Virus record (IMG/VR): IMGVR_UViG_3300045996_002544
Coordinates: 1 to 27,143 of that record
Strand: one strand, 5' to 3'
Length of the DNA stretch: 27,143 nucleotides
Source: a virus
This document shows positions 456 through 25,064 of the stretch, piece by piece. Under the pieces are notes generated by a model. That model was not told the origin of the DNA. It was given only the letters and a program-made list of their open reading frames with translations, and did not search any database. Positions within the stretch are counted from its first letter, which is position 1; each line of letters begins with the position of its first letter. The translations under genes and the position numbers were made by a program.

Positions 456-689
456 TCATTGTCCCATCAGGGTCTTCTTGGTGCCGGTGCTGGATTCAGC
501 GCCGCCCCTCCCGGTCCGCATGTTCGCCGCCGATCCGCGCCGGCTCAGCAACGCGTCGGACACGGCGGAATTGGCGCGCGGCGTGGCCACCGGCAGCGGC
601 AGCATCGGCTTCGGCGCCTTAGGTTTCTTGATGAATGCGCTGGCCACCGCCGTGATCGGAGACAGCAGGAATTTCGCCACGCCAGCCAT
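456..689 (-). CDS. Small phage protein next to the large terminase (77 aa)
   Basis: The ATG at 689 overlaps the TAA stop of the large terminase (TAATG), so translation is probably coupled. The protein starts MAGVAKFLLSP, has a short hydrophobic N-terminal stretch, a basic Pro/Lys segment (KKPKAPKP), and ends in STGTKKTLMGQ. From memory, a C-terminal S/T-G-K-K-T-L-G tail after an Arg/Gly-rich segment is typical of small proteins beside terminase and portal genes in many podoviruses and siphoviruses; their function is unsettled. A longer frame from 713 would overlap the terminase further and is less likely. Confidence 0.75.
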   Translation of the reverse strand: MAGVAKFLLSPITAVASAFIKKPKAPKPMLPLPVATPRANSAVSDALLSRRGSAANMRTGRGGAESSTGTKKTLMGQ

Positions 690-2551
690 TATGCCGCCCT
701 CCCCATCGCCCAATCCGGATTATCGTTCGCCGCGCGCATGCCGGCAGGCCGATGCGCGAAATGCCCGTTGCCGAAATTGACCTTGCCGCGCTGCTTGCGC
801 TGCGCCGCGCCCTTGCCGGCGGCGTCTTCCCAGCCGTCATGCTTGACGAGGCCCAGCACCAGATACTGGTTGGCGTCGTGGACATGGCTGAAGTCGTTCT
901 TCAGCGGCTCGTCTTTCCAGCGCCCGCCGCCAGTCGAGAATTCGACCCGCACCACCACGTAGCCGCGATTATAGCCTTCGCGCAGCACCTTGCAGAGGTC
1001 GCTGATCACGTAAGCGGGCTGATTGTCGTTCACGCCCTTCAGCTGCTCGCGAACGGCTTCCAGCCGCGGCCCGATCAAATTGCGCTTCACCGGCGCCGGC
1101 TTGAACTTCAGCGCCACGCCGGTGATTTCCTTGAATCCTGCGACGAATTTGTGGATCCACGCACGATCCTCGGCATTGGCGTCGCTGTCGCCGAACCATG
1201 CGGAGGGGTCCGCCCAATGCGTGTCGCCCAGCCGGCAGCCCTTGAAATTCTCGTTCCAGTAGCGGCCGCAGCTCTGGCCGAATTCCTTTGCGCCCAGATT
1301 TTCGAGCGTCTTTTCCTTGCCCGGCTTGTAGATCACGCATTCGTCGACCACGCGCACCTGCCCGGCCACCTTCTGGCCGAACAGCGCCGCCGGCGTGTTG
1401 CCGCCGTCCAGCCCCAGATGCACCGGAAAGCGCGGATCGACCCGCATGCCCGCCACGCAGTGCCGGGTGTCGGCATATTGCGAATAGACCGGATTGCCGT
1501 CGCGCACCGCGCCGAACTGGTTGTGCACGAAGCGGCGCTTGTCCGCCTCCGTCATGCCGATCTGGATGCGCTCGTAATAGCCCTTGGGCAGGTTGGCGAT
1601 ATTCTCCGCACCGGCGCTCAGCCCGCCGGGCTGGACATGGAACGACACGCGGAAATTCTCGCCGAACTCGCGCTGGTATGCCGCCATTTCCTCGGGCGTC
1701 AGCCCGATATTCTTGTTGACGTTGAAATCATAGGTCCAGCTGTCTTCGGCGGGCGCGTTCATGTCGCCGATCACGCCGCTCCAGCCGCCGATCGGCGTGC
1801 CCGGCGGGCGATAGCGGCCCACGCGCGGGAAGCCGTATTTGAATACGTCCTGGTGCAGCGTGTCCTTTTCGTTCAGCCACAGCCCCGTCAGCGCCATGCC
1901 CTTGAACAGCTCTTCGGCGGACTGGTTGTCGACCGCGCGGAACAGCATCTCTAGCTCGAGCCATTCCAGCTGCCCCGGCGCCACCGGGATCGCGAAGCGC
2001 AATTTATGGGTGTTGGTCGAAAGGTTGTAATTTTCCTTCGTCTTCGGAAACCACATGAACCAGTCGGCCATGACGTTCGATTGCAGATGCCCATAGGTGT
2101 CGCGCACCACGCACCAGCGCGCCCGCCGCACCCCGTCCGGTCCCTTGGGCTGCCACAGGATCGAATTGATGATCTTCTGGAAGCACGTCGTCGTCTTCGC
2201 GGAGCCGTATGGCCCCATGATCGTCGACACTGCCGACTTGTCGACCCGGAAGGCATGCGCCACCGGCCCGACGAACTTCATCGTCAGGCCCTTGGACGCC
2301 GCCAACAGATTGCCATAACGCTCGCGCGCCTCCGGCTCGAGCAATTCGGGATCGACTTCCTCCAGCCGCTGGATGATCCGATCGGCTTCCGTCACGATCC
2401 GGTGCTGCTCCACCGATCGCGTCGGCAGATCGCGCAGCGGCCGCGCTTCCACGATCGCACCCGTGCAGAGCTCGAGCACCGTCGCGGTAATCACCGCCGC
2501 CGAGCTCAACGCCTTCAGCGCGTTGTCGGTAAAGGTGGGGGGGAGCTTCAT
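689..2551 (-). CDS. terL: Terminase large subunit (DNA-packaging ATPase/nuclease)
   Basis: The 620-residue protein has the two parts of a large terminase. The N-terminal ATPase has a Walker A-like MGPYGSAKTTT (about residues 112-122) and a Walker B-like LTGLWLNE (221-228). The C-terminal RNase H-fold nuclease is marked by LGLDGG (Asp382), HWADPS (Asp448) and HVHDANQY (Asp559), which fit the acidic metal-binding triad. It would drive genome translocation into the prohead and cut the DNA. Its ATG overlaps the upstream stop by four bases. About 110 residues precede the Walker A motif, longer than in many terminases. Family assignment is secure; the exact subfamily is not. Confidence 0.93.
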   Translation of the reverse strand: MKLPPTFTDNALKALSSAAVITATVLELCTGAIVEARPLRDLPTRSVEQHRIVTEADRIIQRLEEVDPELLEPEARERYGNLLAASKGLTMKFVGPVAHAFRVDKSAVSTIMGPYGSAKTTTCFQKIINSILWQPKGPDGVRRARWCVVRDTYGHLQSNVMADWFMWFPKTKENYNLSTNTHKLRFAIPVAPGQLEWLELEMLFRAVDNQSAEELFKGMALTGLWLNEKDTLHQDVFKYGFPRVGRYRPPGTPIGGWSGVIGDMNAPAEDSWTYDFNVNKNIGLTPEEMAAYQREFGENFRVSFHVQPGGLSAGAENIANLPKGYYERIQIGMTEADKRRFVHNQFGAVRDGNPVYSQYADTRHCVAGMRVDPRFPVHLGLDGGNTPAALFGQKVAGQVRVVDECVIYKPGKEKTLENLGAKEFGQSCGRYWNENFKGCRLGDTHWADPSAWFGDSDANAEDRAWIHKFVAGFKEITGVALKFKPAPVKRNLIGPRLEAVREQLKGVNDNQPAYVISDLCKVLREGYNRGYVVVRVEFSTGGGRWKDEPLKNDFSHVHDANQYLVLGLVKHDGWEDAAGKGAAQRKQRGKVNFGNGHFAHRPAGMRAANDNPDWAMGRAA

Positions 2552-2880: not shown

Positions 2881-3641
2881 TCGCCGTCCACTTCGTCATC
2901 GTCGCCCAGCGGCTCGCGTTCTTCGCTGTCGTCGGGCACCGGCTCGAACGGCGTGTATTCCAGCGCCTCCAGCTGATCGCTGGTCAGCTCGGGCGCGTTG
3001 ACGAAATCCTGCAGCGCGGCGGCATCGGTCAGCCCCGGAATGTTCAGGATCACGTCGGGGCGCATCGTCACGTCGACGGCCACCGGCATCTTGCTGTGGA
3101 CGTACTGCGCCACTTCGCGCGCCGAATCGCGCTGCAGCAGCAGGGCCTTCAGCGCCAGCTCGCCGGGCTTCGCCTTGAGCACCCGGAAATCGTTCTGCAC
3201 ACGGTCGACCAAGACTTTGAGCCGTTCGATTTGTTTGTCAGTCAGCGACACTTCACCTGCCAGCACACGGCTCAGCAGCGTTTCGAGTTCATCGAGCCGC
3301 ATGGCCATCAAATGCTCGCGCTCACGCGATCCATCGGCAATCATCAGCAGCTCGCAGAGCTGGTCCAGCGGCATCGAATAGATCGAGGCCATCGCCTCCA
3401 CCGGATCGCCGAACTTGTGCACGATCAGCTTCGCCAGCGCCTGCGTCCGCTTGTTGCCCGAACCGGCAGGGCGCCCCACGCCGCGCTCGGCATTCTCGCG
3501 CATCCGCCGGAAAATATCGGAAGGCAGCCTGCCGTCTTCGCCCCGCAGCAGATCCAGCTGTTCGGTATCGGCATCGACGCCCAGCATGGTGCCGGCCTCG
3601 GCCGTCATCGCCTTCATCAGCGCGGAGGGTTCAGCGCCCAT
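2877..3641 (-). CDS. Putative terminase small subunit (254 aa)
   Basis: The protein lies two genes upstream of the large terminase. It has a Gly/Arg-rich GRPAGSGNKRTQ stretch near residue 56, followed by a predicted helical region, a central coiled-coil-like segment around residues 110-160, and a very acidic C-terminus (DDDEVDGE). A basic DNA-binding N-terminal part with an oligomerising middle and an acidic tail fits a small terminase that recognises the packaging site. The assignment rests mainly on position and architecture. A generic DNA-binding or scaffold protein is the alternative. Confidence 0.6.
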   Translation of the reverse strand: MGAEPSALMKAMTAEAGTMLGVDADTEQLDLLRGEDGRLPSDIFRRMRENAERGVGRPAGSGNKRTQALAKLIVHKFGDPVEAMASIYSMPLDQLCELLMIADGSREREHLMAMRLDELETLLSRVLAGEVSLTDKQIERLKVLVDRVQNDFRVLKAKPGELALKALLLQRDSAREVAQYVHSKMPVAVDVTMRPDVILNIPGLTDAAALQDFVNAPELTSDQLEALEYTPFEPVPDDSEEREPLGDDDEVDGE

Positions 3642-3838
3642 CAGGCGATTACCTCATACTCGGCGATATCGAAGGGACTGCCCGTCAGGCTCCAGCGGCA
3701 ACCACCCTTGCCGTCCGCCGCCCAGCCGGGCGGGCTCATCGGATTGGGATCGCAGCGGCCGATCCCGCCATGCGCCATCCGCACGCGAACCCGCTTCCCT
3801 TCGGCCTCCGCCGGACAATATCCGAGGTTAGGCACCAT
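3641..3838 (-). CDS. Small conserved phage protein, KRVRVR...GCRWSLTGSPFDIAEYEV type (65 aa)
   Basis: The 65-residue protein carries a basic KRVRVRMAHGG segment and a C-terminal CRWSLTGSPFDIAEYEV. I associate this pattern from memory with small proteins in alphaproteobacterial prophages; no function is known to me. Its stop overlaps the next start in a TGATG arrangement, and its own start overlaps the preceding gene by 11 bases, so it sits within the packaging operon. Two Cys residues (8 and 29) and one more at 47 could bind metal, but no clear finger is formed. Confidence 0.7.
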   Translation of the reverse strand: MVPNLGYCPAEAEGKRVRVRMAHGGIGRCDPNPMSPPGWAADGKGGCRWSLTGSPFDIAEYEVIA

Positions 3839-4073
3839 CGGGCTTGCCCCCGGCGAGCGCCCGCAGATGCGCTGCTTGGTCGGTCAGCAGCCCCGCGCGA
3901 TGCTCCAGCACCTTCGCCGCGGCGAGCAACGTGAAGCTGGTAATCCCGCGATCGGCACCCAAATAGGCGCGCAGCGTCCGCTCGGCGATCCCCATGCCCG
4001 CCGCCAGCGCAACCTGCCCGACAAGCTCACCTGCCTTGCGCAACGCCACGATGCGCGGCAATCGCGAAGCCAT
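3828..4073 (-). CDS. Putative helix-turn-helix phage protein (81 aa)
   Basis: From ATG 4073 the protein reads MASRLPRIVALRKAGELVGQ and continues with AAGMGIAERTLRAYLGADRG, which resembles a helix-turn-helix (turn around AAGMGIAER, recognition helix TLRAYLG). The frame stays open upstream to about 4205, but that part would overlap the microprotein at 4112-4225, so the shorter start is preferred. No clear ribosome-binding site precedes 4073. It may bind DNA at the packaging region or regulate late genes. Confidence 0.6.
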   Translation of the reverse strand: MASRLPRIVALRKAGELVGQVALAAGMGIAERTLRAYLGADRGITSFTLLAAAKVLEHRAGLLTDQAAHLRALAGGKPDGA

Positions 4074-4111
4074 CGCACTGTGCCGCTTTTCAGGAACGGG
4101 CGCGCCAGAGA

Positions 4112-4225
4112 TCACGAAAGCGCCCAGGCCGCTGCGATAATGCCGACCCATGCGACGACGAGCACCAGGCATGCGAGCAACCGGGCTTGTCGCACCTGTG
4201 CGCAATCATAGTGCTCCCCGCTCAT
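4112..4225 (-). CDS. Single-pass membrane microprotein (37 aa)
   Basis: A 37-codon frame starts at ATG 4225, overlapping the stop of the upstream lipoprotein by four bases (ATGA). It begins MSGEHYDCAQVRQARLL and then has one long hydrophobic segment (about residues 16-36), a clear transmembrane helix with a short cytoplasmic or periplasmic N-terminus. The overlap and the membrane segment argue that it is real. With the adjoining lipoprotein it might form a membrane pair such as a spanin-like or exclusion system; this is inference. Confidence 0.6.
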   Translation of the reverse strand: MSGEHYDCAQVRQARLLACLVLVVAWVGIIAAAWALS

Positions 4226-4452
4226 AGCCGCGGGCACTTGTCGAGTGCTGCCAGGCTGACGCGCAGCGCACCCAGCGCCGCTTCGCGCTTCACCGGGTCC
4301 GCGATCGTCTCAGCCTTCACCATCGCCGCGATCAGGCCGGCGCGCACCGAATCCTGCCGCGAACAGACGACGGCGCCGGCCGAGTTGACGCCCTGCCCAC
4401 CGGCGCAGCCCGCGAGCAGCGAAGCCGCGATGATCAAGCCGAGACGCTTCAT
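4222..4452 (-). CDS. Small phage-encoded lipoprotein (76 aa)
   Basis: The protein starts MKRLGLIIAASLLAGCAGG: a basic N-region, a short hydrophobic core and a lipobox LLAGC with the lipidated Cys at residue 16. The mature part is about 60 residues with two further Cys (30 and 73) that could form a disulfide. A strong GGAGG lies six bases before the ATG. It is the first gene of the leftward packaging operon and overlaps the membrane microprotein. Possible roles are an outer-membrane spanin-type subunit or superinfection exclusion. It is not Pro-rich like classical Rz1, so the role is open. Confidence 0.75.
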   Translation of the reverse strand: MKRLGLIIAASLLAGCAGGQGVNSAGAVVCSRQDSVRAGLIAAMVKAETIADPVKREAALGALRVSLAALDKCPRL

Positions 4453-4560
4453 TCGATCCTCCGATATCGGCGGGGCGCGCGCTGAACGCCGCGAGGGGCG
4501 GCGCGATCGCCGCCCGCCGGGTGCCTTGCGAGCAGTACCGGACGCCCCTTGGGTATTTCG

Positions 4561-4590
4561 TTGACACTGCCCGCCGGCGGAGTCAGACTC
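4561..4590 (+). promoter_or_regulatory. Promoter-like site with an 11-bp palindrome over the -10
   Basis: A consensus -35 hexamer TTGACA (4561-4566) is followed after 17 bases by CAGACT (4584-4589), a weak -10. A perfect palindrome GAGTCAGACTC (4580-4590) covers the -10. It points rightward into the region without genes. The -35 match is exact but the -10 is poor. Confidence 0.35.
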
Positions 4591-4858
4591 TCCGACTTGC
4601 CAGCACCGAGCGGATGATGAGCCTCAGCTTCACCCCGACCCATTGCCCTGCGAACGGATTCGGCGCGCTTCGCGCCTGAAGTCTCGCGGCGCGGGAAAGC
4701 CCGTACCCCCGACCCCATTTTCGCAACTGAACTTCGCGGCCCCTCGCACCCGTCGATGCGCTCACCGCGACAAGTCGCGATCGAACCTTCCGAAAGATTT
4801 TCCGAGCTCCAGCTCCGGCGGACGCCAGGGACATTGGGGGTCGCGCGACGGCGCGAAA

Positions 4859-4873
4859 GGGGGGACACCCCCC
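4859..4873. repeat. G6/C6 hairpin
   Basis: Six G residues, ACA, then at least six C residues form a short, very stable hairpin. No T-run follows on the plus strand. Confidence 0.5.
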
Positions 4874-4877
4874 CTCC

Positions 4878-4911
4878 GATCGGCGCCGGCAGGCCGCCCG
4901 GCTGGCCGATC
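4878..4911. repeat. Compound inverted repeat
   Basis: The outer arms GATCGGC and GCCGATC are perfect 7-bp complements, and inside them GCCGG (4885-4889) pairs with CCGGC (4898-4902). It directly follows the G6/C6 hairpin and precedes the 25-bp palindrome, so three secondary structures stand in about 100 bp. Confidence 0.5.
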
Positions 4912-4932
4912 TGGGCGCGCTCGGCGCCGCGC

Positions 4933-4957
4933 GTCGTCAGATTGGCAATCTGACGAC
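4933..4957. repeat. Perfect 25-bp palindrome (12-bp arms, 1-bp centre)
   Basis: The arm GTCGTCAGATTG (4933-4944), a single G, and the exact reverse complement CAATCTGACGAC (4946-4957) form an uninterrupted dyad. Such length without mismatch is unlikely by chance and suggests a protein-binding site (operator, relaxase nick region, recombination or replication site) or an RNA stem. No gene is recognised on either side within several hundred bases. Confidence 0.75.
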
Positions 4958-5301
4958 TGCCCTCCAAAAATGCTGTCTTCACAAGCCCTTGCGGCCCCCA
5001 TGCGACAACGCACCGTGCGACATAGCCGAATCGACCCGCCAGAAACGGCAGAAAACCGTGGGTCGCAAGGATCCGGCGAGGATGCCGATCGACACCCTCG
5101 CCGGCCTCGGCCAGGCCAGTCTCGAGCGCCAGCACCAAGCCCGCCCGGCCGAAAAAATCCCCAGCCGCCCGACGCCCACGCACCTCGCACACCCATCGGG
5201 CGGCGGGAGCGGCATATCTGCCCCCTATTAAATTCGGCTCGGGAGTCGGGCTGAGAAACATGGCGGCGAAACTGCGCAAGCCCCCTCTGGGGCCGTCCTA
5301 A

Positions 5302-5496
5302 ATGTTCTATCCTTGGGACGCTAAAGAGAGAGGATTAGTGCCGCGTTCCAGATGTTCCAGCCTTCTCGCGCGCACGTGAGGCACAGCCGCTTGGGCGCAC
5401 ATCGGCGGGAGCCCCGCTTGGGACGGAACGGCCCAGATCAGCAACTAAATACAGGCTTATCAGTGCCTTACCGCGTTCCAAGTCTGGAACATCCGG
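5302..5496. repeat. Three related GTTCC dyad sites
   Basis: ATGTTCTATCCTTGGGACG (from 5302), ATGTTCCAGCCTT (from 5352) and, on the minus strand, ATGTTCCAGACTTGGAACG (ending near 5473) are variants of one sequence. The third is a near-perfect dyad, GTTCCAAG with TCTGGAAC (5475-5490). CCGCGTTCCA precedes two copies, at 5341 and 5471. The set looks like a multi-site operator or iterons. Confidence 0.5.
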
Positions 5497-5598
5497 TACA
5501 CCCCCGACCCGTCGCTGCACCCAGAATTCGCGTGAAACTTGATCGCTAGAAACGGGTCCGGGTGAACAGGGAGGCGAGGCGGGGAGGCAGACGAAGGA

Positions 5599-5637
5599 GG
5601 CCGCGCGCATCGCGCCGCGGTGCGGCGCTGCGCGGCC
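5599..5637. terminator. Large GC-rich stem-loop, possible terminator
   Basis: Outer arms GGCCGCGC (5599-5606) and GCGCGGCC (5630-5637) enclose a second perfect stem GCGCCGC / GCGGCGC with a 3-base loop. The T-rich GAGTTATTTGTTTG follows on the plus side. It could stop rightward transcription, although the T-run is not immediate. Confidence 0.4.
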
Positions 5638-5730
5638 GAGTTATTTGTTTGACCAGTATTCGTGGCAGACGGGTCGTCTAGTTCGTGCGCTCAACTGTCC
5701 AATTCGGGTAGGTTACTGGCGACAAACTTG

Positions 5731-5750
5731 CCAGCCCGCACCGGGGCTGG
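5731..5750. repeat. 7-bp hairpin ahead of the membrane gene
   Basis: CCAGCCC (5731-5737) and GGGCTGG (5744-5750) are perfect complements, ending directly before a GTG codon (5751) in frame with the membrane protein. It could be a leader hairpin. Confidence 0.35.
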
Positions 5751-5807
5751 GTGTCCCGCAGCGCGATACTTGCGCCGGAACCGCCCGCCGTGGCAGCTTG
5801 GCCCGCC

Positions 5808-9630: not shown

Positions 9631-10449
9631 TCACTCGGACGGACCGACGAAGCGCAGACCCTGTTCAGAGCAATAGCGTTGGAACGCAGGGCCATGGAGT
9701 TCGCTTGGCAGCATCGCGATGCTGTGTCCGACCGTGCCGCCCTTCCACGAGCCTTTGCGCCGGCCAACCTCCGACGAAAAGCTTAGGTCGAGCGAGCGGC
9801 CAACCTTGTTGCGGCCGATGAAGAGCAGACGAAACACGCCCTTTCCGCGACGCCATTCACGTTCTTCAATACGGCAGGTTGCTGTGATGCGCTCGCCATC
9901 GAAGTCGTCGAAGGCAAACTTCGCTACAGGGCACGCTGCCTCAATGGCATTCTTTACAGCCCAGCCATTCTTATGCCGAAAGCCCCATTCCGGCAGGTCT
10001 GCGAAATGCTCGCCGTCCAGGTCGTACAGGCTGTGGCGAACGAAGCGGTGCTCGCGCCACGGATAGAACCAACACTTGCTTTTTGTCGTCTCGCTGTCGT
10101 GCGTCTGCGGGCCGTAATGGAGGTGCAGCGATCCCTCGAATAGGGAGAGCCCGAACTCCCGAGCGTGCTGATCCCAATAGCCGGGGCGTCTGCCTTGTGC
10201 GAGGATCTGGGACCGTGTCGGCTCGGTCGTGATTTCATGCCACTTACGCCAAGGTTTGATCAGCGCAGGCAGTCGGACGATCAGCGTGTGGGGTCCAACT
10301 GCGATGCGCAGGCGGCAATGAGGATAATCATCCCCATCACCGGACCCGAGCATGATCGCCAGCTTTCGATAGCGAGGTTCGTGGGCATAGGTGAACGGGC
10401 CGAAATAGCGGTCGTTGTCGCTCCATCGAATTGCAGTCGCTCTGCTCAT
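9631..10449 (-). CDS. Conserved phage protein of the 'SDNDRYFGPF' type (272 aa)
   Basis: The start at ATG 10449 is supported by AGGAG nine bases upstream. The protein begins MSRATAIRWSDNDRYFGPF. It contains GDGDDYPHCRLRI and HTLIVRLP near residue 60, DLDGEHFADLPEWG in the middle, and a C-terminal SFSSEVGRRKGSWKGGTVGH. From memory this order of motifs belongs to a widespread uncharacterised family in alphaproteobacterial phages. No catalytic residues can be named. It stands in the leftward early operon next to the replication genes. The N-terminal extension of the frame to 10542 has no start signal and overlaps the neighbouring gene. Confidence 0.75.
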   Translation of the reverse strand: MSRATAIRWSDNDRYFGPFTYAHEPRYRKLAIMLGSGDGDDYPHCRLRIAVGPHTLIVRLPALIKPWRKWHEITTEPTRSQILAQGRRPGYWDQHAREFGLSLFEGSLHLHYGPQTHDSETTKSKCWFYPWREHRFVRHSLYDLDGEHFADLPEWGFRHKNGWAVKNAIEAACPVAKFAFDDFDGERITATCRIEEREWRRGKGVFRLLFIGRNKVGRSLDLSFSSEVGRRKGSWKGGTVGHSIAMLPSELHGPAFQRYCSEQGLRFVGPSE

Positions 10450-10486
10450 GACCGGATCTCCTGAGAAAGATTGAAAGCTCGGGCGT

Positions 10487-10630
10487 TCACCGCCCACGCC
10501 CCGCCCAGCGCTCGGCCGCCTGCTCCATGCTGGAAGGCGCATTGCGCAGGTCGATCAGCTTGCGCCGCGGCGCCGGCGCAACCGGACGCGGCACCGCCGT
10601 CAGATCCTTGCGCTCATCCTTGCCGCTCAT
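10487..10630 (-). CDS. 47-aa basic protein coupled to the Toprim gene
   Basis: The frame starts at ATG 10630, overlapping the Toprim stop by four bases (ATGA), with GGAGGGG four bases upstream. It begins MSGKDERKDL and has a Pro/Arg-rich middle (VPRPVAPAPRRK). The strong ribosome-binding site and the overlap make it credible despite its size. No family recognised. Confidence 0.55.
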   Translation of the reverse strand: MSGKDERKDLTAVPRPVAPAPRRKLIDLRNAPSSMEQAAERWAGRGR

Positions 10631-21412: not shown

Positions 21413-22675
21413 TCATACCTTTCGGACGGCCATCGCTCCGACGCGGTATATTCCCGACACTGCCTGGCCGTTGATCGTGCGGCCCTTCATTCCCACCCGA
21501 ATCGTCGTATCAGTAAGCGTGAACTTCGGGGTGCGCATCACGCCAGAAACCGCCAGACTCGGCATTACCATCGCGTTGATGTCCGTCGAGTCCATGAGGA
21601 AACCGGAATTGTGCGTGAAATCCGTCGTGGAAGTTATCGACAGGCCATGCGACGTAAGGCCGCCGATGCTGTCATATTCAACCTCCGCGTAAGCTTCGAT
21701 GACATCGCCGATAGTGAGATTTCCTGCCGAAAGTGTCTGATAGAAATCGAACACGTCCGCACTCGCCGAAGCGGTCCCGCTGAGGGTGATTTGCTGTATA
21801 TCTGTCCTGCCGCCGGCCAGGCTGACCTTCGCGCCCGTGGCGGTCACGCCTGAGCCGCCGCTGACCGTATAGCCGGTCGCCGCCGTCGCACCGCCCTGCA
21901 TCATCGGATTCGAGTTGACACACCCGCGCGGATACGAGGCGTTCCACACGTCGGTATTCTGGCCCGGAAGCACGTCCACGAAGGGAAAGAGGCCAGGAGA
22001 TCGGCCGATGCCGAACAATTCGGCGAGCGCCAGACCAGCCCAATAGCCTCCCGCGACCGACGGATGGAGACCGTCATAGGTGAAGTTGGTCTTCATCGCG
22101 CCGTTCGCGCTCGCCGGATCGGCGAGGTATCGCCACATATCGACGACGTACACGCCCCCGCCGGGGTTCGCGAGGCTGAGAACATAGTCCCGGCGCGCCA
22201 GATGGTCCCGGAGCTGCGCGGCCGTCAGGGTGAGCCCGCTGGCCGTGATGTCGCGAGGTCTCGGCGTGACGCAAACGCAGATGCGTCCAGCGGCTAGGAC
22301 CATATCGACCATCCGTCGGTAATTGGTCTTCGACTGCGCTAGCGTGACGCTGTTCGGCCCGTCGTTCGTGAGACAGTCGAGAATAACCGTCCCGGCCGTC
22401 GTGGCCGCGAGCGCCGCGGGCGCGCGGGCCAGAACGTCATTGGTATTGTCGCCCGGAACCCCGAAGTTGTCCGCGTGGTCATAGATCCAGCGCTGGCGCC
22501 CGAGGAATGATGCCCAATTCACATAACCTTTCGCGTAGTGCTTGAGCGCGTTCCCCGACAGGAAACTATTCCCGTAGGCAATGGAGTCGCCCAACAGGGC
22601 AACGCGATTGTTCCGGAAGCGCGGGGCCGAAGCCGACTTCGCTGCCCCGAATGCCGCGGCTGAAAATCCGGCCAT
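21413..22675 (-). CDS. Tail-associated SGNH/GDSL hydrolase
   Basis: The N-terminal 215 residues have the SGNH pattern: VALLGDSIAYG with nucleophile Ser31, CLTNDG with Asn104, and YDGLHPS with Asp201 and His204. There is no signal peptide, so it is probably assembled into the virion. The C-terminal half (about 230-420) is rich in Gly, Ser and Thr and beta-like, as in receptor-binding or carbohydrate-binding regions. It probably removes acetyl or other acyl groups from a host surface polysaccharide. It is the last gene of the late operon. Confidence 0.82.
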   Translation of the reverse strand: MAGFSAAAFGAAKSASAPRFRNNRVALLGDSIAYGNSFLSGNALKHYAKGYVNWASFLGRQRWIYDHADNFGVPGDNTNDVLARAPAALAATTAGTVILDCLTNDGPNSVTLAQSKTNYRRMVDMVLAAGRICVCVTPRPRDITASGLTLTAAQLRDHLARRDYVLSLANPGGGVYVVDMWRYLADPASANGAMKTNFTYDGLHPSVAGGYWAGLALAELFGIGRSPGLFPFVDVLPGQNTDVWNASYPRGCVNSNPMMQGGATAATGYTVSGGSGVTATGAKVSLAGGRTDIQQITLSGTASASADVFDFYQTLSAGNLTIGDVIEAYAEVEYDSIGGLTSHGLSITSTTDFTHNSGFLMDSTDINAMVMPSLAVSGVMRTPKFTLTDTTIRVGMKGRTINGQAVSGIYRVGAMAVRKV

Positions 22676-23071: not shown

Positions 23072-23421
23072 CTGCTATCTCCTGATTGTTCGATCGGCAC
23101 GGGGTTCGCGGCCGAGTTCGTCACGTTCACGTCCAGCGATCCCGGCGCCGGCGCGGCGGCCAGTTGCGTGCCCAGCTGCTGGATCTGCCGGCCGCTCGCG
23201 AGCTGCACGAGCGAGCTAAGGCAATCGCCCAGCCGCAATCCGGTGACAGAGGCGATGCCAACCAGCACGTTCTCCGCCCAATTCGGCACGGCCATGCCAG
23301 GGCGCGAAGTCAGGAAGAGCCCGAGCACGATGCCCAGCAAGATCGCGATCAGTCCGCCGGCGATGATCATCAGCACGCGCAGCTCCTGCCGCTGCGAGCA
23401 TTCGAGGGGGGACGCGCTCAT
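23068..23421 (-). CDS. Holin-like membrane protein (117 aa)
   Basis: ATG 23421 overlaps the endolysin stop by four bases. After a short N-terminus (MSASPLECSQRQELR) one strong hydrophobic segment (about residues 16-38) crosses the membrane. A second weaker stretch lies at 48-62. The C-terminal half is polar. Place directly after the endolysin suggests a holin or other lysis membrane protein; sequence gives no family proof. Confidence 0.62.
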   Translation of the reverse strand: MSASPLECSQRQELRVLMIIAGGLIAILLGIVLGLFLTSRPGMAVPNWAENVLVGIASVTGLRLGDCLSSLVQLASGRQIQQLGTQLAAAPAPGSLDVNVTNSAANPVPIEQSGDSR

Positions 23422-23885
23422 CGGAAATACCGCCAGTTGATCGCGGTGCGCGGCCCGCCGGCCTGTCGCCCTGCCATCATGCGGGCGCGCGGATCGAAGC
23501 TGACGTGAACGACGTTGCGCCCGCTTTCCCAGATCAGCTGGTCGATCTTGATCGCCTTTGCCGTCATGGCGGCGGCGATGCGCCGCGCGAGATCGAGCGA
23601 GGAAAGCCCAGCGGCGCGGATGTCGCCGGCAAAGCCCAGCGGATGCGCCGACGTCGCCGTGCCGCCCACCAGGCGATTTATTTCCGGATTCCGGTATGCG
23701 CTCATCACCACGATCGGCTTGCCGCCAATGAGCGCGCGCAGCTGCTCCAGCCCCGGCGCAAGATGCCGCCGCATATTCTCCAGATGCGCCGGCTGTGGAT
23801 CGTTGGCGATTCCGCGCTCGTCCGCCACGGACGAAACCAGCAGTTCGTCCAGCCAAAAATGCTCGCTCAGTCGTTCACGCGCCAT
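23418..23885 (-). CDS. Endolysin, peptidase M15 family
   Basis: The 155-residue protein has the M15A pattern: SAYRNPEINRLVGG (residues 62-75), SAHPLGFAGD with His81 and Asp88, and VVHVSFDP with His127. These are the zinc ligands of D-Ala-D-Ala-type peptidases that cut peptidoglycan cross-links. No signal peptide is present, so a holin must let it out. ATG 23885 is preferred to 23894 because GAGGG is nine bases upstream of it. The gene overlaps the spanin-like gene by 11 bases. Confidence 0.85.
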   Translation of the reverse strand: MARERLSEHFWLDELLVSSVADERGIANDPQPAHLENMRRHLAPGLEQLRALIGGKPIVVMSAYRNPEINRLVGGTATSAHPLGFAGDIRAAGLSSLDLARRIAAAMTAKAIKIDQLIWESGRNVVHVSFDPRARMMAGRQAGGPRTAINWRYFR

Positions 23886-24348
23886 TTGCCGCATCCCTCA
23901 CCAGCCGGTGCGCGCTCACCGCCACCTGCACGTCCTGCCGAAGTTCGCCGCGCAAGCTTGCCCGCCGCTCGCGCTTGCCCTCCCGGGCGGCGATCACTTC
24001 GGCGATGATGATCGGATGCTTTTCCGGATCGGAGTGCTTAAGCGCGAGCAATAGCCCGTCGAAGGTCCCCTCCAGATTGTTCAGCTCTTGCTGCACGATC
24101 TCCAGATTCTTGTGGCACAGCTCGTTTTCCAGCCGCGCCGATCCACGGTCGCTCTCTCGGCCGGCTTCCAGCATCGTGATCCGCTGCGCCTGCTGCTGCA
24201 CCAGATCCAGCGCGACATTGTCGGTCTGCTTCCGTTTCTCGCGGCTATGCTGCAGCATCCGGTCGTAAAGCCGCGCCAGCACGCCGCCCACGCCCAGCGA
24301 TCCGCCGGCCGTTAGCAGCATGGGCCAGTTGTCCACCAGCCAGCTCAT
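23875..24348 (-). CDS. Spanin-like membrane/coiled-coil protein (157 aa)
   Basis: The N-terminus (MSWLVDNWPMLLTAGGSLGVGG) is one hydrophobic segment. A long charged helical region follows (residues 28-115), with heptad-like spacing around DNVALDLVQQQAQRITMLEA and LENELCHKNLEIVQQELNNL. One membrane anchor plus a coiled coil next to the endolysin fits an inner-membrane spanin (Rz-like). I see no embedded or following Rz1-type lipoprotein here. The lipoprotein at 4222-4452 is distant. Confidence 0.62.
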   Translation of the reverse strand: MSWLVDNWPMLLTAGGSLGVGGVLARLYDRMLQHSREKRKQTDNVALDLVQQQAQRITMLEAGRESDRGSARLENELCHKNLEIVQQELNNLEGTFDGLLLALKHSDPEKHPIIIAEVIAAREGKRERRASLRGELRQDVQVAVSAHRLVRDAANGA

Positions 24349-24401: not shown

Positions 24402-25064
24402 ATGTCGAGAATTGCCATCTTCGGGACGGGCGGTTTCGCGGTCCAAATGATTGATACCGTCGCCGCGCTGGCCGACCAAGGTCATCAGATTTTCTTTGCA
24501 GATGATCAGGTCCGGGAGTTCTTTGGCTATCCTGTCACCAAGCTTGTGGATGTCGGCATTGCCGAACTTGTGATCAGTGTATCTGAGCCCGACGTAAGGC
24601 GGAGCATCGCCAGTCGGTACGCCCGGCATTCGCCGGGAACGTTGCGTGCGAATACGGCGATTGTCTCGGAAAGGGCTGAAATCGCAGGCGGCGCTATCAT
24701 TGCGCATCAGGTCGTGATCGAAGCTGGCGCTAAAGTTGGCGCGCATTTCCATGCGAATGCCTTTGCTTTCGTCGCGCACGACTGCTCGATCGGGGATTTT
24801 GTCACGATTGGACCTCGCGCCACCTGCTGCGGCAATGTCCGGATCGGGGATGGCGTCACCGTGGGGGCGCATGCCGTCATTCGAAACGGAACGCCCACTC
24901 GTCCGCTCATCATAGGCGCAGGCGCGGTAATAGGTATGGGCGCCGTCATTACGAAGAACGTGCCCGCCGGCGCGATCGTATACGGGAACCCCGCCCGGAT
25001 TCATGCCTGGGTCCATGCGCCGACGATCCCGGTGAGAATCCACGCCGGCCCACCCACCCCCTGA
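24402..25064 (+). CDS. NeuD/PglD-type sugar O-acyltransferase
   Basis: The 220-residue protein has an N-terminal nucleotide-binding-like part (MSRIAIFGTGGFA) and a C-terminal left-handed beta helix of hexapeptide repeats (about residues 84-195). VAHDCSIGDF supplies the conserved catalytic His (126). Such enzymes move acetyl groups from acetyl-CoA to sugar nucleotides or O-antigen and capsule sugars. It lies on the opposite strand of the late operon between the tailspike and lysis genes, and its end overlaps the tailspike end by 64 bases. Base use is less GC-rich than in the replication genes. A lysogenic-conversion gene is likely. Confidence 0.82.
   Translation: MSRIAIFGTGGFAVQMIDTVAALADQGHQIFFADDQVREFFGYPVTKLVDVGIAELVISVSEPDVRRSIASRYARHSPGTLRANTAIVSERAEIAGGAIIAHQVVIEAGAKVGAHFHANAFAFVAHDCSIGDFVTIGPRATCCGNVRIGDGVTVGAHAVIRNGTPTRPLIIGAGAVIGMGAVITKNVPAGAIVYGNPARIHAWVHAPTIPVRIHAGPPTP

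Follow-up and report, generated by a model that had tools for sequence, protein, structure and literature searches.

A candidate late-operon leader of sphingomonad-type phages holds DNA sites within a long open frame of unconstrained amino-acid sequence

What fills positions 4453-5807 of the viral record IMGVR_UViG_3300045996_002544, a linear IMG/VR fragment of 27,143 bp that is analysed here as a whole and called the window? The stretch is bounded by the start of a minus-strand gene (4452) and by a plus-strand ORF from about 5808, and a first-pass annotation took it to be free of genes and full of secondary structure, offering a packaging site, an origin, attP, a structured RNA or an oriT-like plasmid remnant as its possible content. 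No ORF of 4453-5807 matches Pfam, PHROGs or NCBIfam, which agrees with the absence of recognisable genes, but a long minus-strand frame running from 5261 to 4449 had been overlooked. This frame, the transit ORF, and the genes that follow it are:

4449-5261, minus strand: transit ORF, from ATG at 5261 to TGA at 4449, 270 codons, open without amino-acid constraint
4222-4452, minus strand: inserted lipoprotein-like gene of 76 amino acids, with SD GGAGG; its start overlaps the transit ORF stop (ATGA)
3828-4205, minus strand: inserted gene of 125 amino acids, whose relatives lie close to the terminase genes in other contigs
3641-3838, minus strand: inserted ORF of 65 amino acids
2877-3641, minus strand: putative small terminase subunit (TerS), named by position only
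689-2551, minus strand: large terminase subunit (TerL), 33% identical to TerL of Burkholderia phage BcepC6B

Three small genes (3641-4452) separate the block from the small terminase in the window, and in L187, L188 and L205 other genes lie between the two. A PDB profile search with the large terminase gave no informative match, and the putative small terminase had neither a family match nor a match in a fold search, for which the predicted model was weak. Relatives of the 125-residue gene (3828-4205) occur near the terminase genes of L205, L069, L187, L188 and L189, and in L205 directly after the leader.

Further from the terminase genes, 9631-10542 (minus strand) has a strong Pfam match to Acb3, a CBASS anti-phage inhibitor (PF25187, E 4e-78). 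A hexapeptide-repeat acyltransferase with a PglD-like N-terminus is encoded at 24402-25064 (plus strand, opposite to its neighbours) and possibly serves surface-sugar modification, while a GDSL-type lipase/esterase (21413-22675, minus strand) and an M15 peptidase (23418-23894, minus strand) are probably a tail-borne esterase and the endolysin, respectively.

With the large terminase as query, eleven close relatives were found in IMG/VR. Ten of these first eleven have the module ahead of their terminase genes, and the contig of the eleventh begins inside TerS. The ten share a conserved block of about 600 bp, located upstream of the gene that precedes TerL and homologous to approximately 4550-5400 of the window. 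Its core, AAYGGGGTCGGGGGTRCGGG, was found in a prophage of Sphingomonas hankookensis KCTC 22579 and in 12 contigs of viruses that belong to this family; the sole other genome matching the 20-mer core pattern, Hymenobacter telluris, was set aside as a probable chance match, since tblastn placed none of 13 window proteins in its 8-kb locus. The wider sample comprised distant relatives in genomes of Sphingomonas and other Sphingomonadaceae together with two overlapping sets of 80 viral loci each, and here too the module was found in many distant relatives, within a recurring gene order of Toprim, primase, block, small terminase and large terminase. Read in the terminase direction, the module consists of tandem GAACn5GAAC boxes, TTGCG, ATG, CGAATAAAATAGGGGGCGGATAT, direct repeats, a dyad, a hairpin, GGGGTCGGGGG boxes and RTGTCAAC, the last of which is the start of the putative small terminase in relatives. 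The corresponding features of the window are:

5499-5512, minus strand: ACGGGTCGGGGGTG box, an upstream copy of the GGGTCGGGGG motif; similar upstream copies in L037 and L014
5475-5490, minus strand: GTTCCAGACTTGGAAC dyad
5343-5358, minus strand: distal GAACn5GAAC box (GAACATCTGGAAC); L187, L188 and L205 likewise have such a further copy, about 50 nt upstream
5295-5309, minus strand: proximal GAACn5GAAC box (TAGAACATTTAGGAC), a putative activator site
5275-5280, minus strand: -35-like CTTGCG; the 20 nt that bear the -10 of relatives are absent in the window
5214-5236, minus strand: CGAATTTAATAGGGGGCAGATAT element, 27 nt after the ATG
4998-5024, minus strand: two direct repeats, TATGTCGCACGG / GTTGTCGCATGG, with a spacing of about 15 nt
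4933-4957, no strand assigned: 25-nt palindrome GTCGTCAGATTG-G-CAATCTGACGAC, also in L037 and half-kept in L003
4854-4874, minus strand: GGGGGGGTGTCCCCCCTTTCG hairpin, a candidate cleavage or binding site
4700-4720, minus strand: core box AAATGGGGTCGGGGGTACGGG, about 155 nt after the hairpin
4631-4644, minus strand: second, weaker box AATGGGTCGGGGTG
4557-4567, minus strand: GTGTCAACGAA, at the site of the small-terminase start (RTGTCAACTGA) of relatives; the stop is lost and the frame continues

Among relatives the transit ORF keeps its frame, its start and the position of its stop while its amino acids differ, and each of the close lineages has a long frame that spans all the module elements. 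For counting, the frame was set by the CGAATAAAATAGGGGGCGGATAT element (which L186 does not have), and this was located by its DNA pattern alone, so that loci were not selected for openness. Frame 0 was open for 185-261 codons in 38 of the 42 element-bearing loci and frame 1 was open in three of the other four; in L084 the element is followed by no open frame. Stops within 180 codons after the element, counted in 37 loci, numbered 14, 103 and 110 by frame, with all 14 of the frame-0 stops confined to five loci and that of L213 being the frame's own terminal stop. Shuffling gave a probability of about 0.02-0.3 per locus, and the product over the stop-free loci was e^-69 (summed ln P of -69), a value that ignores kinship and therefore overestimates the significance, though not by enough to matter. 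The nearest in-frame stop upstream of the ATG lies at a median distance of 12 nt, indicating that openness begins at the ATG.

At the other end, where checked, the stop of the frame overlaps the start of the next gene or lies no more than about 40 nt from it; in the window the overlap is ATGA at 4449-4452. The forms of overlap with the small-terminase start vary (RTGTCAACTGA, RTGTCAACTAG, TGATG and others). Where genes have been inserted or the small terminase has been displaced, the RTGTCAACTGA stop is lost and the frame extends to an ATGA overlap with the next start. The gene that begins there is lipoprotein-like in the window and HTH-like in L205; L187 and L188 have unrelated genes at this place, and in L204 it is the small terminase. 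In having a conserved start and stop, the open frame behaves as a protein-coding gene would.

The amino acids do not follow suit, and purifying selection on codons was not detected in the 12 pairs of leaders compared. Differences were spread over the codon positions as 529:529:508 (chi-square, p = 0.75); in the same pairs the adjacent TerS gene had an excess at position 3 (e.g. 22:12:57, 21:16:60 and 24:17:90), and two very close pairs had a mild third-position excess in the leader (4:4:13 and 10:5:12). As in non-coding DNA, 26 of 39 leader indels were not multiples of three, the frame being restored by compensation. The DNA of the core box is read in frame 0 or in frame 2 depending on the lineage, giving MGSGVR or NGVGGAG, and the third positions of the N-terminal element are conserved as well as the others. 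The predicted leader product has a mean pLDDT of 34 and no secondary structure. Taken together, the flat codon-position pattern, the compensated indels and the boxes read in differing frames indicate that DNA sites and translatability are conserved; as judged by comparison of the sequences, translatability, not protein sequence, is what selection has kept. The first-pass annotation had held that a protein conserved in one frame among homologues would make the stretch coding; the frame is indeed conserved, the protein is not.

Two readings of the frame have to be weighed against these observations. It could be an ordinary but very fast-evolving protein gene, accessory or anti-defence for example, that is translated before the small terminase, and the conserved ATG, the length of about 200-270 codons, the stop/start coupling and an N-terminal pattern NxIxGGY would all suit such a gene. 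The flat codon-position pattern in 12 pairs and the frequent compensated indels of 1-2 nt do not, nor do conserved DNA in differing frames, an N-terminal element whose third positions vary no more than the rest and the lack of either fold or family, and we regard a protein gene as improbable. The frame could also be a chance feature of GC-rich DNA, as at a single locus an open frame this long arises in about 2-30% of shuffles. However, nearly all lineages agree in which frame is open, the other two carrying their 103 and 110 stops, and the stops of the open frame coincide with the start of the next gene; this reading is already contradicted and we give it almost no credence.

Within the frame, the AT/G-rich CGAATAAAATAGGGGGCGGATAT lies 27, 39 or 48 nt after the ATG among relatives. 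The unit of the direct repeats is lineage-specific (GTCGCAYGG, TGACGCACCGG, AAGTCGCAACG or TGTCTGTCTGG), while the spacing of about 15 nt is kept. The unit has been exchanged between otherwise similar phages (window 4998-5024, minus strand, L006, L014, L037 and L009), and exchange of a unit at fixed spacing is as expected of a specificity element. The palindrome of the window, which the first-pass annotation had rightly singled out, has perfect arms of 12 nt with 1 nt between them, an arm of at least 12 nt appeared in no dinucleotide shuffle, and it sits where relatives have a dyad of variable sequence. The hairpin has G5-8/C5-6 among relatives and is followed by TT(T), the GGGGTCGGGGG core comes about 155 nt after it, and a weaker second copy of the core is found 75-90 nt further on. 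The family of GTTCC/GGAAC dyads reported earlier is present as well (5295-5309, 5343-5358 and 5475-5490). The four or five strong hairpins of the same account were an overstatement: with perfect arms of at least 8 nt only two are found, against 0.6 +/- 0.7 in shuffles, to which the G6/C6 hairpin at 4854-4874 and an imperfect one at 5073-5104 can be added, and the number of hairpins is only mildly raised over shuffles.

Upstream of the frame, the spacing of the elements resembles that of a promoter. The distance from the TTGCG hexamer to the conserved ATG is 32 or 33 nt in 22 of 26 scanned loci, and a TA-containing hexamer follows 17 nt after TTGCG, with 9-10 nt from there to the ATG. Such a promoter would be sigma70-like, and its transcript, beginning 0-3 nt ahead of the ATG, would be nearly leaderless. 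The proximal GAAC box is at -64 to -67 relative to the ATG in most relatives and at -46 in the window, and from the interval separating the -35 hexamer from the leader ATG (5259-5280) the window lacks about 20 nt that nearly all relatives have. Because of this loss, the window's copy of the late promoter may be impaired, or another promoter may be used.

From these elements we infer packaging function, promoter activity and translation of the leader. A phage activator would bind the GAAC boxes, transcription would begin at or just before the ATG without a leader, ribosomes would translate about 200-270 codons of a sequence-free transit ORF and then pass to the small-terminase start through the stop/start overlap. 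The direct repeats, the palindrome, the G6/C6 hairpin and the GGGGTCGGGGG boxes would function at the DNA level, most likely as the site that the small terminase recognises to start packaging, and the open frame would keep the late mRNA covered by ribosomes across a GC-rich, hairpin-rich site without termination or uncoupling. The stretch is thus probably the late-operon leader of a temperate sphingomonad-type phage family, with DNA sites, most likely a packaging start (cos or pac), lying within a translated transit ORF.

A packaging start is the simplest reading of the sites because they are tied to the terminase genes rather than to the primase and because the dyad is flanked by repeated boxes; being translated, they are unlikely to work as folded RNA. 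As expected of cos, the site immediately precedes the genes for both terminase subunits, with three small genes between in the window. One circular contig of 42,189 bp (G002, L030/L031), with an exact end overlap of 127 bp (assembly k-mer), is broken over the G/C hairpin, where a random break would fall in well under 1% of cases. Three other circular contigs (G409, G411 and G434) are broken elsewhere, and among upstream contig ends no concentration at the hairpin was visible, so a fixed cos-type end is unsupported in general. The literature on packaging in BcepC6B and BPP-1 gave no direct answer; a PhageTerm survey reported a BcepC6B-like phage without fixed termini, but the same was reported for all 82 phages and may be uninformative (PMC12860723).

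Among the options offered by the first-pass annotation the best-fitting candidate is a packaging site, as every relative with the module has it ahead of its terminase genes. The others fared less well. An attP is unlikely from the arrangement of the genes, since in the S. hankookensis chromosome the module lies within the phage gene block, between primase and terminase, and the window's integrase is about 14 kb from the stretch. For a structured RNA, no Rfam family matched in the stretch, and one would hardly be expected where the DNA is kept translatable. The idea of an oriT-like plasmid remnant found no blastn match in PLSDB, and the nucleotide comparison proposed at the time, run with 2.8 kb around the region, gave no blastn match in phages or plasmids. 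The remaining option, that the module is a replication origin, draws on the two iteron-like direct repeats about 15 nt apart, the AT-rich hexamer and the primase and Toprim genes a few kb upstream; but its position is fixed to the terminase genes while the distance to the primase varies by kilobases, there are just two repeats and no initiator gene is adjacent, which makes an origin quite improbable. A late-operon regulatory leader alone, with promoter, attenuator or terminator hairpin and antitermination elements and no packaging function, deserves more serious thought: the promoter-like spacing and GAAC boxes suit it, the G6/C6 hairpin is followed by TTT and folds at -11 to -17 kcal/mol, and late control regions lie, as here, between replication and structural genes. 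We nevertheless consider it unlikely, as the lineage-specific direct repeats, like the boxes that follow the hairpin, resemble protein-binding DNA sites, translation would disturb RNA elements, the hairpin tail has only 2-4 T and a terminator scan of the window found none.

If the leader with a packaging start is translated, shielding from termination is the obvious reason. Rho polarity is not indicated as that reason, as no C-rich, rut-like stretches were found in the leader transcripts. Since the transcripts are G-rich and without such stretches, occlusion of the GC hairpins or coupled initiation of TerS may count instead.

We found no report of such an element in the open-access literature. 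Whether dozens of divergent lineages share a phage element of a distinct class, with a long frame kept solely for being a frame, a sequence-free ribosome track that carries cis-acting DNA sites and lets the late transcript pass them, is in our judgement evenly balanced. If so, selection can keep some 200-270 codons translatable whatever their product. Such a case would let one ask by natural experiment why transcripts in bacteria have to be translated, and it would be a warning for annotation in both directions, as such ORFs resemble orphan genes or empty DNA. The module would also be a precise place to seek the packaging start of widespread, little-studied sphingomonad phages, and its leaderless late promoter would be a test object.

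The lambda cos region (cosQ-cosN-cosB) lies upstream of nu1/terS, and the module resembles it: in both, conserved DNA spanning a few hundred bp, in which a dyad and repeated boxes occur, immediately precedes the small and large terminase genes. Unlike lambda, the module has no known cut site or overhang and contig ends generally do not fall here; lambda cos is not known to lie within a maintained reading frame. The SPP1-type pac (pacL-pacC-pacR), a headful packaging site, lies upstream of gene 1, and there too a central site with boxes on either side precedes the small terminase gene; however, the module sequence is unrelated. The BcepC6B/BPP-1-like podoviruses supply the annotated large terminase that comes nearest at broad coverage (33% identity), and in BcepC6B a gene upstream of TerS also overlaps the TerS start (475-478), but that gene is a short annotated repressor gene and the module DNA has no match there. 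Finally, as in translational coupling and leader peptides, the stop/start overlap would bring ribosomes to the next gene; leader peptides, however, are short, whereas here 200-270 codons are kept open, unconstrained in sequence and carrying DNA sites.
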